Source of the DNA: Catenulispora pinistramenti
Lineage (GTDB): Bacteria; Actinomycetota; Actinomycetes; Streptomycetales; Catenulisporaceae
Direction of reading: 5' to 3'
NCBI RefSeq assembly: GCF_018274385.1
Contig: NZ_JAAFYZ010000100.1
Location: 1-34,874 of the forward strand
Length of the DNA: 34,874 nucleotides
Of the stretch, positions 4,892 to 34,042 are shown piece by piece. The notes beneath the pieces were generated by a model that saw only the letters and a list, made by a program, of their open reading frames with translations, did not search any database and was not told where the DNA came from. A program made the position numbers and the translations under genes. Within the stretch, counting starts at the first letter, position 1; every line of letters begins with the position of its first letter.

Positions 4892-5458
4892 TCAGTGCGC
4901 CGAAAGCTGATGGCAGCTCGCCGCCGGAACCGGCCGGCCGTGATCGGAGGTCATGCAGGACGGTGCGCCCCAGATCGCCATCGGCATGACCGTCGCCAGC
5001 GAACCCACGACCGCCGCCGCCACCAACCCGGCGGCACGTCGGCTGAAGGACAACTTGCGGGACCGAACACGTGGCGTAGCCACGGGCTCCGATACTTCTG
5101 CTGCTGTAGCTGGTTCTGTAACCGCAGCAGCAGAAGTCAGCGCAACCATCGGAGCTACCGCAGTTACGGTAGTCACCGCGGCCACCGGAGCAGTGACCAC
5201 GAGCGCGACCTCGGCCCGCCGCCGGCACCACGCCTCGACGTCGCCACCGCACGCCCGCACGTATCCGGTGAGCACACCGACCGACGGCAGTCCGGCTCCG
5301 CTCGCCGCGGCGGACAACGCCGACGGCGAGTAGCCGGCGGCCCTGCTCATCTCCCGGTACGTCGGCGCGCCGGCGAGGCGCCGGAGTTCGCGTAGGTCGA
5401 CTGCCAGCCGTGCCACCGGTCCGGACTGCGGGTCCAGCTGTTTCTCCAGTCGGCCCAT
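4892..5458 (-). CDS. HTH domain protein with C-terminal membrane segment
   Basis: A 188-residue protein. Residues about 15-75 form an XRE-like helix-turn-helix (LRELRRLAGAPTYREMSRAAGYSPSALSAAASG) of the kind common in actinobacterial helix-turn-helix domain-containing proteins. An Ala/Val/Thr-rich linker (84-128) follows, then a single hydrophobic segment (about 142-163) and a short tail outside with two Cys. AGGAGG precedes the ATG. A DNA-binding or partner-binding domain tethered to the membrane suggests a sensor role, but the ligand is unknown. The linker is encoded by a striking nested DNA palindrome (5086-5172). The DNA-binding domain is well supported; the function is not. Confidence 0.8.
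   Translation of the reverse strand: MGRLEKQLDPQSGPVARLAVDLRELRRLAGAPTYREMSRAAGYSPSALSAAASGAGLPSVGVLTGYVRACGGDVEAWCRRRAEVALVVTAPVAAVTTVTAVAPMVALTSAAAVTEPATAAEVSEPVATPRVRSRKLSFSRRAAGLVAAAVVGSLATVMPMAIWGAPSCMTSDHGRPVPAASCHQLSAH
5086..5172. repeat. Nested inverted repeats inside the HTH gene
   Basis: Three stems share one axis: GCTCCGAT/ATCGGAGC (5086-5093, 5148-5155), ACTTCTGCTGCTG/CAGCAGCAGAAGT (5094-5106, 5125-5137) and GGTT/AACC in the loop. An adjoining hairpin CTACCG/CGGTAG lies at 5155-5172. All are within the linker coding region. Confidence 0.85.
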
Positions 5459-5562
5459 CGAGATGCCTCCTCATACGTTCACGCCGTCAGAATTGTCTAC
5501 GGTTTGTACAGCGGCCGGGTTCCCGTTTGCAGATCAAAAATCCGCATCGTCTGCTGGTACGC

Positions 5563-6276
5563 ATGCCGAACAAGAGACCATCCGCATCCCGCCGCGCCGA
5601 GAACGCGCGCCAGAAGGCCGAACGGCTCCGGGCTGAGCAGCGCCGTCGTGAGCGGAACCGCCGCGTCATGATCGCCAGCAGCGTGTCGACGTTCGTGGTG
5701 GGTGCCGTGGCGCTGGCGGTCGCGTTCTGGCCGTCGGGCTCGGGCTCGGGCTCGGGCACGGCGAAGGCGGCGTCCCCGCCCGCGTCGGCGACGCTCGCCC
5801 CGGCCGGTCAGCTGACCGGCGCGCCGGTCGACGGCATCCAGAGCGGGGCGATGGAGCAGCTGGCGTTCCACATCCACGCGCATCTGCAGATCTACGTGAA
5901 CGGCCAGCAGAAGCAGCTGCCGTACGGCATCGGCATCGAGCGCCCGTACCAGATGACGACGGACGCCGACGGCAACCCCTTCGCCGAGGGCGGCAAGGCG
6001 ATCTACTGGCTGCACACGCACGATCAGTCCGGGATCATCCACATGGAAGCGCCGATCCAGGTCCAGTTCACCCTCGGTGAGTTCTTCGACATGTGGGGCC
6101 AGCCACTGACCACCAGCCAGGTGGGTCCCGCGCACGGACAGCTCACGGCGTTCGTGAACGGCAAGACGGTGTCCGGTGACCCGCGCGCCATCGCGCTGAA
6201 CGCGCACGACGTCATCCAGCTTGATGTCGGGTCTGTGGTTCCGTTTCAGAGCTACACGTTCCCAGCGGGTCTTTGA
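5563..6276 (+). CDS. Membrane-anchored His-rich protein, conserved in actinobacteria
   Basis: A 237-residue protein. A highly charged Arg/Glu helix (residues 10-35) is followed by one membrane segment (36-56), a Ser/Gly linker and an exported domain. That domain has two histidine clusters, FHIHAHLQIYVNG (102-114) and YWLHTHDQSGIIHME (148-162), then FTLGEFFDMWG. The motifs suggest metal binding, for example copper or zinc, but no enzyme family is recognised. The ATG at 5563 is chosen because it opens the charged N-terminus; the Shine-Dalgarno is poor, so leaderless translation is possible. It is convergent with mraY, with only 9 bp between the stops. Metal binding is inferred from the histidines. 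Confidence 0.82.
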   Translation: MPNKRPSASRRAENARQKAERLRAEQRRRERNRRVMIASSVSTFVVGAVALAVAFWPSGSGSGSGTAKAASPPASATLAPAGQLTGAPVDGIQSGAMEQLAFHIHAHLQIYVNGQQKQLPYGIGIERPYQMTTDADGNPFAEGGKAIYWLHTHDQSGIIHMEAPIQVQFTLGEFFDMWGQPLTTSQVGPAHGQLTAFVNGKTVSGDPRAIALNAHDVIQLDVGSVVPFQSYTFPAGL

Positions 6277-6285
6277 CGGTTTTCG

Positions 6286-7482
6286 CTACCGGACCGTGGT
6301 CCCGCCGGCGTAGAAGACGGTGATTCCGGCGATGACGAACAGGCCGCACAGGATCCAGAACCGTACGACGACGGTGGTTTCGGACCAGCCGACGAGTTCG
6401 AAGTGGTGGTGCAGTGGCGCGATCCTGAAGATGCGTTTGCCGCCTCGGTAGCGGAAGGAGGCTACTTGCAGGACGACTGAGACGGTGTTCATGACGAACA
6501 GTCCGCCGATGAGGGCCAGCAGCAGCTCGGTGCGGGTGCAGATGGCCAGGCCGGCCAGGGCTCCGCCGAGGGCCAGGGAGCCGACGTCGCCGAGGAAGAT
6601 CTGGACCGGGGCGGTGTTCCACCACAGGAACGCGAAGCAGGATCCCATGATCGCGGCGGCGACGATGGCCAGGTCGAGCGGGTCGCGGACCTGGTAGCAG
6701 CCGGCCGGGGGGCCGGCGGGTCCGACGGCGGCGCAGGATTGGCCGTGTTGCCAGACGCCGATGAAGACGTAGGCGCCGAACACCATGGTGCAGGCCCCGG
6801 CGGCGAGTCCGTCGGCGCCGTCGGTGAGGTTGACGCCGTTGGAGGCGCCGGCGATGAGGAAGCCGGCCCACAGGACGAACAGGATGGGCCCGATGGTCAG
6901 TGCGGTGTCCCGGTAGAACGAGATGTGGGCGGAGGCGGGGTGGTAGCCGTGGCTGTTCGGGAAGTGCAGCGCCGCCACCGCGAAGACGATCGCCGCCGCC
7001 CACTGCCCCACGAACTTCGCGCGCGCCCGCAGCCCGAGCGACCGTCCCCGGAACACCTTGAGCAGGTCGTCGACTCCGCCGACCACACCCATCGCGGTCA
7101 TCAGCAGCAGGACCAGCACCCCCGACGCCGACGGACCCTGGCCGGTGACGAGCTTGGTGGCGACGTAGGCGAGCAGCGTGGCCAGGACGATGACGATGCC
7201 GCCCATCGTCGGTATGCCCCGCTTGGCCAGGTGTGCCTGGACGCCGTCGGTCCGCACCTGCTGTCCGACGCCCAGGCGCGTCAGGATCTTGATGGCGGCC
7301 GGGGTGCCGGCGAAGGTGAAGACGAGGGCGAAGCCCGCGGAGTACAGGACGCCGCGCATCTGCAGGTGCCCGGCCGGGGCCGTGCCCAGCCCCAGGTTTA
7401 TGCCCGTGCCCGTGCCTGAGTTCGGCGGTGGTGATCCAAGAACAGCTGAGGCTGCGGCGGCTATGGAGTGCGGGAACGTCAT
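6286..7482 (-). CDS. mraY: Phospho-N-acetylmuramoyl-pentapeptide-transferase
   Basis: A 398-residue integral membrane enzyme with about ten helices. It transfers phospho-MurNAc-pentapeptide from the UDP precursor to undecaprenyl phosphate to form lipid I. Diagnostic motifs are intact: the DDxxK site (Asp138, Asp139, Lys142), NLTDGADGLA (218-227), FLGDVGS with Asp299, and the HHHFE loop (358-362). Compared with usual family members it has about 41 extra Ala/Gly/Pro-rich residues at the N-terminus. The usual start would be Met42 (7359), but only the 7482 ATG has a plausible Shine-Dalgarno (GGAG). None of the normal cell-wall cluster neighbours (murE, murF, murD, ftsW) is here, so this may be a second copy. 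Such extra copies can matter for resistance to nucleoside inhibitors of MraY; that is inference. Confidence 0.95.
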   Translation of the reverse strand: MTFPHSIAAAASAVLGSPPPNSGTGTGINLGLGTAPAGHLQMRGVLYSAGFALVFTFAGTPAAIKILTRLGVGQQVRTDGVQAHLAKRGIPTMGGIVIVLATLLAYVATKLVTGQGPSASGVLVLLLMTAMGVVGGVDDLLKVFRGRSLGLRARAKFVGQWAAAIVFAVAALHFPNSHGYHPASAHISFYRDTALTIGPILFVLWAGFLIAGASNGVNLTDGADGLAAGACTMVFGAYVFIGVWQHGQSCAAVGPAGPPAGCYQVRDPLDLAIVAAAIMGSCFAFLWWNTAPVQIFLGDVGSLALGGALAGLAICTRTELLLALIGGLFVMNTVSVVLQVASFRYRGGKRIFRIAPLHHHFELVGWSETTVVVRFWILCGLFVIAGITVFYAGGTTVR

Positions 7483-7620
7483 CAGGCTCCGTACTTCGGT
7501 TCGGCTGGTCGCGCGTCGGCCCCCGCAGCCGGCCGAATCGGCGTGGTCAAAAGAGTGACTGCATCCTAATGTTCGGTGCGGGACTGCGGTGCGTGATCAC
7601 GCTGCTGGAGCCCGTGCGGC

Positions 7621-7668
7621 GACGAGCTCCCGGCCGACAAGCTCCCCGGCCGACGAGCTCCCCGATCC
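7621..7668 (+). repeat. Short tandem repeat upstream of the TIGR02569-like gene
   Basis: Three consecutive copies of GACGAGCTCCCCGGCC-like units of 15-17 bp, ending about 20 bp before the GTG start. They vary in length by single bases, so they are not coding in one frame. Confidence 0.6.
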
Positions 7669-7687
7669 CCGAGGCGAAGGACATCAG

Positions 7688-8554
7688 GTGGCAAGCATTC
7701 CCGGACCCGAAGTTCTCGAGGCGTTCGGGCTTTCCGGCCCCGTAGTGCCGCTTCCTGGCGGGGAAGGGCGGTCCGTCCGGGTCGGCGCTGCGGTCCTGAA
7801 GCCGGCCGACGGCCGGGAGTTCACCGACTGGCTCGGCGAGACGATGTCGGGGATCGTCGAGGACGGCTTCCGGGTCAGTCGGCCCCTCCGGGCGTCAACC
7901 GGCGCCTGGCAGCATGCTGGCTGGACCGCGTCCGGCTACGTGCCGGGAGCGGAACCCGATCACGAGGCCGAGCCCCGCTGGCTGGAGATCATCGAGGCCG
8001 GGCGGGCCTTCCATCGTGCGCTGGCGACCGCCCCGCGTCCGGACTTCCTGGACCGGCGTGCCAACTGGTGGCAGACCGGCGACTACGTGGCCTGGCAGGA
8101 ACGGCAGCCGGACCTCGTGTCCGGTCTTCAGGCGAGCTACGACGACCTGGCCGCGCTGATCACCCCGCTTCCCGGATCGGCCCAGGTCACGCACCAACCC
8201 GCACCCCAATTGATCCACGGCGACCTGACCGGCAACGTCCTGTTCAGCGCAGGCCTGCCCCCTGCGGTCATCGACTTCTCGCCGTACTGGCGTCCCGCGG
8301 CCTTCGGCGAGGCGATCGTCGTCGGCGACGCGCTCATCTGGCACGGCGCCGATGCCGGCCTGGTCCGTGACCTCATGTCCGACCGCGGACCCGGCTTCCT
8401 TCAGTACGTGGCGCGCGCCGTCGTCTTCCGGCTCGTCACGACCAGCGAGCGGGTGCGGAGCCAGGCAGCCGAGCAGTCGGCGTCCACCGCGCGCGAGGTC
8501 CGCAGGTACGAGCGGGCGGCGAGCCTGGTCGCAGGCCTGGCGCGCGCCGTTTGA
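7688..8554 (+). CDS. TIGR02569-like kinase-fold protein
   Basis: A 288-residue actinobacterial protein related to aminoglycoside phosphotransferases. It keeps LIHGDLTGNVLF (175-186) with Asp179 and Asn183, and VIDFSPYWRP (194-203) with Asp196. The HGDLTGNVL and FSPYWRP wording is typical of TIGR02569. The GTG at 7688 follows GAAGGA and matches the usual family length; an upstream frame extends further but reads through a tandem repeat. Substrate and pathway are unknown for the family. It is convergent with the PHP gene. Confidence 0.85.
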   Translation: MASIPGPEVLEAFGLSGPVVPLPGGEGRSVRVGAAVLKPADGREFTDWLGETMSGIVEDGFRVSRPLRASTGAWQHAGWTASGYVPGAEPDHEAEPRWLEIIEAGRAFHRALATAPRPDFLDRRANWWQTGDYVAWQERQPDLVSGLQASYDDLAALITPLPGSAQVTHQPAPQLIHGDLTGNVLFSAGLPPAVIDFSPYWRPAAFGEAIVVGDALIWHGADAGLVRDLMSDRGPGFLQYVARAVVFRLVTTSERVRSQAAEQSASTAREVRRYERAASLVAGLARAV

Positions 8555-8605
8555 TGCGGGGGATGTGGAGCTGGTCGGTGTGCGGAACTGGCCGGTGTTG
8601 GGTGT

Positions 8606-9595
8606 TCAGGTCAGGATGATGGGGTTGCTTAGCGCGGCCATGCGTCCTTCGGGGTGGCGTACCTCGATGCGGATGAACGCTGATTCCGCGGCGGTGGTGT
8701 GCCACTGCACGGTGCCTTCGCCTGTGTCGGGTAGCGGTGCGCTGTGTATCTTGCCTTGCACGGTGTGGAAGCTGACGACGCCGGAGGGCACGCCGCGCAT
8801 GTCCACCCGGGCCACGGCCGGTTCGCCGCCGGTCGTCAACCGCTCGCCGATCCCGGCGGTGTGATTGCCGGCTGAGACCGTCAGGGATAGCTCGACAGCG
8901 GCTGATTCGGCGATCCAGCTGTGGCCGGCGCGGATGCCGGCGAGGATCGCGTCGGTGCTGAGTTCTTCGGCGAGTACGACGGTGTGTGCGATGCCGATCT
9001 GGCTCTGAAGGTGGGTGTCGCTGTTGCCGATTGCCGGCCGCCACCGCTCGTGGTGGATGTCGGCGGCCAGGGCGCGGCCCCATTCGGCCAGGGCGGTCTC
9101 GTTGTCGGCTTGCCAGGGCAGCTCTGAGCTCCAGGGGCCGTTCCACACTTCCACCGCGTCCAGGCCCTGGTACGGGTACATGAACGTGCCGGAGGCGTAG
9201 GGCGCGTGCGGGTGGGCGGCCACGCACAGGCCGCCGGTGCTGTGGACTTCGTCTAGATGGCGTTGGAGGATCTCTTCGCGTACTCCGTAGTTCCAGTCGA
9301 TGACCTGTCCGGCGGGTATGCCGAGTGCGAGCCAGTGCCCGGTGCGGGTGGTGACTTCTTCGCCGAGGATGACCAGCAGATCGTCACCGGCATGTTGCCC
9401 CCAGGCGCCGTGGGCGTCGGAGGCGTTGTGCTCGGTGGTCGCGAGGAAGTCCAGGCCCGCTGCCCGGGCCTCGGCGGCAAGCTGCTGCGGTGTGAGTTCG
9501 CCGTCGGAGTACACCGAGTGCACGTGGAGGTCGCCTCGGTACCAGCCGCGGCCGCGCCCAGCAGCCCGTGTCGGGGGGAAATCTGGTTCCGGCAT
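8606..9595 (-). CDS. CehA/McbA-type PHP domain metallohydrolase
   Basis: A 329-residue PHP-fold enzyme with all metal ligands visible: GDLHVHSVYSDG (21-32; His24, His26, Asp31), TTEHN (His56), the GEE site (79-80), AAHPHAPY (His128, His130) and GNSDTH (Asp193, His195). This order fits the CehA/McbA group, which includes carbaryl and McbA-type hydrolases, with a phosphodiester or phosphomonoester substrate in other members. A C-terminal beta-rich part (about 225-329) looks like an accessory domain. There is no signal peptide, so it acts in the cytoplasm. GGAG sits 5 bp before the ATG. The substrate is unknown. Confidence 0.9.
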   Translation of the reverse strand: MPEPDFPPTRAAGRGRGWYRGDLHVHSVYSDGELTPQQLAAEARAAGLDFLATTEHNASDAHGAWGQHAGDDLLVILGEEVTTRTGHWLALGIPAGQVIDWNYGVREEILQRHLDEVHSTGGLCVAAHPHAPYASGTFMYPYQGLDAVEVWNGPWSSELPWQADNETALAEWGRALAADIHHERWRPAIGNSDTHLQSQIGIAHTVVLAEELSTDAILAGIRAGHSWIAESAAVELSLTVSAGNHTAGIGERLTTGGEPAVARVDMRGVPSGVVSFHTVQGKIHSAPLPDTGEGTVQWHTTAAESAFIRIEVRHPEGRMAALSNPIILT

Positions 9596-29226: not shown

Positions 29227-29814
29227 CTGCGCGGACTCGACCTCGGCTATGCCCGGGTCTCCACCAACAAGCAGAGCCTGGAGCGCCAACTCGACGCCCT
29301 CGGCGCCGCAGGTATCCCGGCCGAGCGGATTTACACCGACAAGAAGACCGGCGCGACCGTCGACCGCGAAGGCCTGACCGCCCTGCTGGCCTACGCCCGA
29401 CACGGGGACACGATCGTGGTCCACACCCTCGACCGCCTCGGCCGGAACCTGCGCGAGGTACTCAACCTCGTACACGACCTCGCTGAACGCGGCGTCGGAG
29501 TCAGGTCGCTTGCCGACCCGCTCCCGATCAACACCTCCGACGAAGGCATGGGTCGGGTCGCTTTCCTGCTACTGGCACTGTTCGCAGAGATGGAGCGGAC
29601 CTTCACCGCTGAGCGGGTCACCCACGCCCGGAGTGTGGCCGAGGCCGCAGGCCGTCGCGTCGGCCGTCCGATCGCTCATCCCGCCGACAAGATCGAGTAC
29701 GCGCGGCTGCTTAAGGCGCAGGGCGAGAGCCTTGGCAAGATCGCCGCCGAGACTGGCATCCCGAAGACGTCGCTCCACCGCTATCTGGAACCCTTCCTTG
29801 AGGGCCAGCGATGA
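29227..29814 (+). CDS. Serine recombinase (resolvase/invertase type), start unresolved
   Basis: A full-length small serine recombinase: [19 protein letters not shown] at the N-terminus with the nucleophile Ser codon at 29260, then the arginine-rich [15 protein letters not shown], the [13 protein letters not shown] hinge and E-helix, and a C-terminal HTH ([22 protein letters not shown]). It would cut and rejoin DNA at paired sites, as a resolvase or invertase. The frame is open from 29116 but has no ATG, GTG or TTG before the domain; a CTG at 29227 is the only near-cognate start close by. Either it uses an unusual start or its 5' end was cut by a recombination. Its TGA overlaps the ATG of the next gene, so three genes are coupled. 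Confidence 0.75.
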
Positions 29815-33573: not shown

Positions 33574-33619
33574 CGGCCCGGCTCACCCGTGTCATTGTTG
33601 CTCGCGAGAGGTGGAGCGG

Positions 33620-34042
33620 ATGTCGCAGGACGACCAGCTGAACGATCAGGACGCAGCGGGCGCCGGAGCGGCCGCGCAGAATTTTTTCGACGAGATGCGC
33701 CGGTGGGAGGAGTGGATGGAGTCCTGTCGGCGCGACACCACGCATGCCGAGCAACTGGCGGCAGTGAAGACGGTGTTCAACAAGTATCTGGCGAAGAGGG
33801 CGCTAGCTCGGCACCAGTCGCGCTACGAAGCGCTGTGCTTCGGCACGCCGCCGGAGTTCGGGGGGCCGATCCTCCGCGTCGAGCAGGAAACGCCGGGGAA
33901 GTGCTGGGTCTACGTGCCGGAGGGACTGATCGGCGGCGAGGCCCGATACGCCATGGTGCGCGAGGACGGTGCGTGGAAGGCCGCGTTCAAGGAAGTCGAC
34001 GTTGCCCTGACGGGCAAGTGGAAGCGGTGGCTGGATCTCTGA
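33620..34042 (+). CDS. Small hypothetical protein, possibly NTF2-like immunity protein
   Basis: A 140-residue protein with a helical N-terminal half (NFFDEMRRWEEWMESCRR, VFNKYLAKRALARHQ) and a beta-rich second half (PEFGGPILRVEQETPGKCWV, RYAMVREDGAWKAAFKEVDV). The order and the final WK-containing strand resemble NTF2-like immunity proteins. ATG at 33620 follows GGAG. No toxin gene is visible beside it. It is bracketed by the two inverted repeat clusters. The family suggestion is tentative. Confidence 0.65.
   Translation: MSQDDQLNDQDAAGAGAAAQNFFDEMRRWEEWMESCRRDTTHAEQLAAVKTVFNKYLAKRALARHQSRYEALCFGTPPEFGGPILRVEQETPGKCWVYVPEGLIGGEARYAMVREDGAWKAAFKEVDVALTGKWKRWLDL

Follow-up and report, generated by a model that had tools for sequence, protein, structure and literature searches.

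A stand-alone extra mraY in Catenulispora pinistramenti, born of duplication and probably encoding a working second translocase I

In most bacteria MraY is essential, and it is also an antibiotic target. Here we report that Catenulispora pinistramenti carries a genuine extra mraY, the product of a lineage-specific duplication, that probably encodes a working enzyme; a conditional isozyme is our best guess for its role. The gene lies on a 34.9-kb contig of the 11.46-Mb genome, and we analyzed this contig at its full length of 34,874 nucleotides (the window). mraY is usually single-copy in the sampled phylum, yet one family of soil actinomycetes duplicates it repeatedly, and the family is therefore natural material for asking what purpose a second lipid I synthase serves and whether it protects against MraY inhibitors. 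Should the gene be merely a spare, it would add modestly to genome annotation. Searches of the open-licence literature for Catenulispora mraY, for MraY together with vanHAX, and for a second, duplicated or paralogous MraY turned up no account of the window gene among the papers listed.

The open reading frame that an earlier note on this DNA had placed at 6286-7482 was confirmed exactly, on the minus strand, which that note had left unstated. The protein passed the cut-off of the mraY equivalog model and also matched Pfam PF00953 and MraY_sig1 in the profile scan. The closely related mraY of Catenulispora pinisilvae NH11 is 95% identical to it. The features of the gene are as follows, with residues of Aquifex aeolicus MraY taken from an alignment to that protein and comparison genomes given as G numbers.

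6286..7482, minus strand: extra mraY (phospho-MurNAc-pentapeptide transferase), 398 aa; TIGR00445, 282.6 bits against a cut-off of 192.05
7487..7490, minus strand: Shine-Dalgarno-like GGAG before the ATG, the same in G008
7360..7482, minus strand: N-terminal extension, codons 1-41, before MRGVLY; G008 has a similar one, G005 and the housekeeping copies have shorter ones
7066..7071, minus strand: Asp pair D138-D139, equivalent to A. aeolicus D117-D118
6811..6831, minus strand: Loop C, N218-D224, equivalent to N190-D196, with A223 at the L195 position
6586..6597, minus strand: Loop D, F296-D299, equivalent to F262-D265, with L297 at the M263 position
6403..6411, minus strand: HHH motif H358-H360, equivalent to H324-H326

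The catalytic motifs are intact, as the earlier note had held: all the active-site residues that we compared with A. aeolicus MraY are kept. In A. aeolicus numbering, the kept residues include K70, T75, D117, D118, K121, N190, D193, D196, N255, F262, D265, Q305, H324, H325, and H326, and we take D117, D118, N255, and H326 to have catalytic or active-site roles. The comparison covered 23 positions (the Asp pair, the Mg Asp, the HHH motif, and the uridine pocket), namely 13 inhibitor contacts named in the accessible part of PMC6606608 and 10 further positions of our own choice. Twenty of the 23 carry the A. aeolicus residue, the exceptions being L195A, K125G, and M263L; the last two are among the 10 further positions, and K125 varies in other rows of the alignment too.

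The start of the gene is credible, since the GGAG sits 5-8 bases 5' of the ATG and the leader is nearly identical in the relative G008. This start places 41 residues before the methionine of MRGVLY. The earlier note had called such an extension unusual, which holds against the aligned Streptomyces copies but not within the genus: the Catenulispora housekeeping proteins have ∼25 residues in this region, ending in LQMRGVLY (7/7 copies compared), and the G005 extra copy has ∼21. Because these copies have their own versions, the extension is best read as a feature that came for the most part from the genus's housekeeping copy and grew longer in the window clade; a new domain is ruled out by the shorter version common to housekeeping copies. 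When aligned to 8g01, which we take to be E. coli MraY, the N-terminal region of 8g01 was merely ∼19 residues shorter than that of the window protein.

No mur or fts gene was found near the window mraY, in agreement with its earlier description as stand-alone. A tblastn search of the window (E 1e-5) with 14 Catenulispora queries other than mraY, covering mur, fts, ddl, and van genes, gave no match. A Pfam scan of 30 readings from the window (29 of its 155 listed ORFs and one open-ended reading) likewise showed no mur, fts, ddl, or van protein. The immediate neighbors are listed below.

5410..6276, plus strand: convergent neighbor, 288 aa, with a weak CU044_5270 family match far below the cut-off; beside mraY in G008 too
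7589..8554, plus strand: divergent neighbor, 321 aa, TIGR02569-like with a score of 100.3 bits (cut-off 136.75); not present in G008
8606..9595, minus strand: CehA/McbA-family metallohydrolase (PHP), lying upstream of mraY and sharing its strand; kept in G008

The convergent gene ends 9 bases from mraY. A segment of ∼1 kb (window 7593-8601) with the TIGR02569-like gene is present here and missing from the same site in G008. We also considered the divergent 321-aa ORF as a nucleoside-resistance kinase and rejected it, on the grounds of the TIGR02569 score below cut-off, no credible PDB match, and its absence from G008. Among the scanned ORFs in the rest of the contig, we saw an amidase, a prolyl oligopeptidase, an APH-family kinase, proteins of the ROK, HEAT, and TPR types, a HAD hydrolase domain, and a protein with a beta-lactamase fold. 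A resolvase fragment lies at 29416-29814 and an NTF2-fold immunity protein (Imm-NTF2) at 33611-34042, close to the contig end; searching the window for tRNAs and Rfam families yielded no match.

The second mraY that the earlier note proposed looking for in the cell-wall cluster is present. It is full-length, lies on contig C652 in the order ftsI-murE-murF-mraY, overlaps murF by 4 bp, and encodes a protein 63% identical to the window MraY; the same gene order was seen in 7/7 Catenulispora housekeeping loci retrieved (L048-L054). The window gene is thus an extra copy. Its being the sole mraY of the genome is ruled out by the copy at C652 beside murF, murE, and ftsI, and a simple relocation is ruled out by the housekeeping gene still in place there. 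The cell-wall cluster of this genome is split after mraY between the C652 part and C658, which carries murD, murG, and a murC-like ligase gene; in two genomes of the related genus g2 (L055 and L056) the cluster is in one piece.

To place the extra copy, we compared it with other MraYs in two trees. In the 51-row tree, the window clade (the window copy, G008, and one of two G005 extras) was sister to the Catenulispora housekeeping mraYs with support of 100/98. The 53-row tree, sampled more widely, gave the same sister placement at 100/98, with a Catenulisporales MAG joining the housekeeping side. Over the tree columns, the window copy is 97% identical to G008 and 72% identical to the G005 extra. 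A second class of extra mraYs, from G001, G003, G005, G007, and G009 together with g2 genomes G010, G012, and G013, groups with two g2 housekeeping copies. Forcing both extra classes together lowered the log-likelihood by 64 (p-AU 0.0004, in a test on 43 rows, 10 of the 53 having been dropped as long or distant, with groups picked after the first trees had been seen), which rules out one common extra-mraY family across Catenulispora. Beyond the family, the 53-row tree pairs each of the G230, G420, and Trebonia extras with the housekeeping copy from the same genome, unites the Pedococcus and G303 extras in a separate clade, and puts the G018 extra among Streptomyces rows; the placement of the G431 extra is unsure, as are those of some long-branched rows, and G139 and G201 were left out. 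These separate placements within and outside the family indicate repeated duplication, that is, extra mraYs that arose more than once.

Extra mraYs are the rule rather than the exception in the family of the window genome. We found one in 10/14 family genomes and in 10 of the 11 that are at least 95% complete, as against 7/397 other sampled genomes of the phylum (10/11 versus 7/397, Fisher p 7e-15, uncorrected for relatedness). Among 398 phylum genomes of at least 95% completeness, 389 had one mraY match, eight had two, the window genome among them, and the remaining one gave no match. No extra copy was found in Catenulispora G002, G004, and G006 (81%, 90%, and 77% complete) or in G011, a 98% complete genome of another genus of the family; one of the ten positive family genomes, G001, has an estimated contamination of 6%. 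The other extras resemble the window gene in standing alone: none of the 14 queries matched the ten other family extra-copy loci (L037-L046) or, within ∼1.5 kb, six of the seven second copies from other lineages, the locus of the seventh (G201) being too short. Three stand-alone mraYs elsewhere adjoin unrelated genes.

We then compared the window genome with G008 for signs of selection. For the extra mraY, dN/dS was 0.20; the housekeeping mraY gave 0.011, murF 0.16, and the convergent neighbor 0.18. The corresponding dN was 0.0247 for the extra mraY and 0.0012 for the housekeeping gene, ∼20-fold lower. The extra mraY is therefore under purifying selection at a level like that of its neighbor and much weaker than that on the housekeeping copy. 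It has also changed at positions that are invariant across 48 rows outside the window clade (e.g., G130A, V163A, A293V, M297L, and T300V), and F136, two residues before the Asp pair and F in 98% of the same 48 rows, is G here.

Overall, we favor with some confidence a paralogue of the housekeeping mraY, born by duplication in the Catenulispora lineage, that most likely encodes a working second translocase I; the window gene is a real extra MraY, and a second lipid I synthase isozyme is our best reading of its role. The duplicate now lies outside the cluster of division and cell-wall genes. In favor of this reading are the two full-length mraYs of the genome, the sister placement in both trees, the kept active-site residues, the dN/dS of 0.20, the spread of extra mraYs in the family, and the start signal and leader found in G008 too. 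The extra enzyme, like the housekeeping one, would make lipid I by moving phospho-MurNAc-pentapeptide from UDP onto undecaprenyl phosphate. It may be separately controlled and active under different conditions, and its retention may reflect, for instance, a demand for lipid I during development, in stress, or when MraY is attacked. Against this reading we count the ∼20-fold higher dN, the changes at otherwise invariant positions, F136G, and the four family genomes without an extra copy.

Compared with the Catenulispora housekeeping MraY, the window protein belongs to the same family (TIGR00445), keeps the checked active-site residues, and has the same kind of extension; however, its gene lies outside the mur/fts cluster, evolves faster, and carries class-specific residues, and the identity is 63-66%. 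The other extras, those of the second family class, Pedococcus cremeus, Trebonia kvetii, and the Streptomyces-like G018, are likewise full-length and accompany a housekeeping copy in the genome, and those that stand alone likewise have no mur query match nearby, but they have other origins in the tree. A second MraY as such is less novel, since Planctopirus limnophila (Planctomycetes) has mraY1 and mraY2 in one genome, either of which can be deleted singly according to the accessible text of PMC10632474. That precedent comes from another phylum, and the same text describes nearly all of the precursor pathway as non-essential in its screen.

The earlier note had suggested a resistance copy. As considered here, the dosage or lower sensitivity of an extra MraY would protect against nucleoside antibiotics of the strain or its neighbors. 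The window genome does have two full-length mraYs, and dosage resistance by this route is plausible by analogy, because mraY overexpression in S. aureus raised the tunicamycin MIC up to 32-fold, as stated in the accessible part of PMC11277991. At the L195 position of the uridine pocket, the window clade has A and the second extra class has Q or E, and I occupies the F262 position in two extra MraYs of that class, G007 (L041) and G009 (L043); F262 stacks on uracil. However, among the 13 contacts that the accessible part of PMC6606608 names, the other 12 (full set K70, T75, N190, D193, G194, L195, D196, F262, G264, D265, Q305, A321, and H325) are unchanged in the window copy, L195A being the sole difference, and A at this position is also present in the G012 housekeeping copy. 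The F262 position is F in the window copy and Y in Catenulispora housekeeping copies. Nor did we recognize a nucleoside-antibiotic pathway in the scanned ORFs of the 34.9-kb contig or in 10 ORFs scanned in the 20 kb around the G005 copy. For self-resistance of nucleoside producers, the accessible parts of the literature describe CapP/Cpr17 phosphotransferases, a proposed N-acetylation, the transporter TunIJ, and the methyltransferase TunM, and do not name a second MraY. No result of the analysis linked the gene to antibiotic resistance, and we consider target duplication possible but unlikely as its explanation.

Catenulispora also has extra ddl and murF genes, and an extra murG in 2/10 genomes. 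It is conceivable, though we think it improbable, that the extra MraY serves a separately regulated second lipid I branch with an extra Ddl, MurF, and in some cases MurG, which would provide a distinct pool of precursor for resistance or for a stage of development; the family would then have recruited an extra MraY on at least two independent occasions. A narrower version would make it the lipid I synthase of a depsipeptide-precursor branch with VanHAX, a second MurF, and a second MurG. VanA scored above the NF000206 cut-off in 8/10 Catenulispora genomes, vanX-vanA-vanH lies beside murF or a murF-like reading in all six loci read, and the window genome itself has vanHAX (C50), a ddl-murF pair (C117), and a murG-like gene (C639). 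The extra mraY shares with these glycopeptide-resistance genes of actinomycetes the presence of additional late-precursor enzymes in one genus, but it is unlinked to them: no van, mur, or ddl query matches its locus or those of the ten family relatives. A VanA match (E 1e-130) was found in 0/10 extra-mraY genomes outside Catenulispora, so the co-occurrence within the genus is explained by genus alone; conversely, G002 has VanA and no extra mraY was found in it, and only two of the ten Catenulispora genomes have the second MurG. The lack of linkage and the 0/10 count weaken the partnership as a general link, and we regard this narrower version as very doubtful. At the same E value, VanA was above cut-off in 2/46 genomes of other orders (G014-G059).

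Ongoing decay of a redundant copy would fit the much faster evolution of the gene and its changes at otherwise invariant positions. The frame is nevertheless intact, the checked active-site residues are kept, dN/dS stands at 0.20, and relatives are retained in G008 and G005; we judge decay very unlikely. An MraY-fold enzyme with a changed substrate, such as another sugar phosphate or polyprenyl phosphate, would account for the long stem (0.43 in the 51-row tree and 0.34 in the 53-row tree) and for class-specific substitutions such as F136G and L195A, but is hardly credible given the score above the mraY equivalog cut-off and the conservation of the HHH motif and of the uridine and Mg contacts except L195.

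The van and precursor-enzyme loci of the genus had features of their own. G003, which we take to be C. acidiphila DSM 44928, has vanX-vanA-vanH with a divergent murF, and its vanH and vanA are separate ORFs. This locus agrees with the vanHAXRSY reported for C. acidiphila in the accessible part of PMC8698665. On C50 of the window genome (L167, 8119-10146), the VanH and VanA models fall in one continuous 675-residue frame with vanX next to it, and the murF-like reading beside vanHAX is interrupted. On C117 (L151, 467-3114), the second ddl overlaps the second murF on one strand, a pair also seen in G008 and G001. The second murG-like gene of C639 (L150, 8700-11092), whose MurG score is just under the cut-off, overlaps a gene for a LegB-like dehydratase. 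Finally, in G010 (L155, C405, 5274-13313), alanine racemase and Ddl models share one 938-residue frame, adjoined on the opposite strand by a second murF and a second murG, forming an unusual precursor-enzyme cluster.
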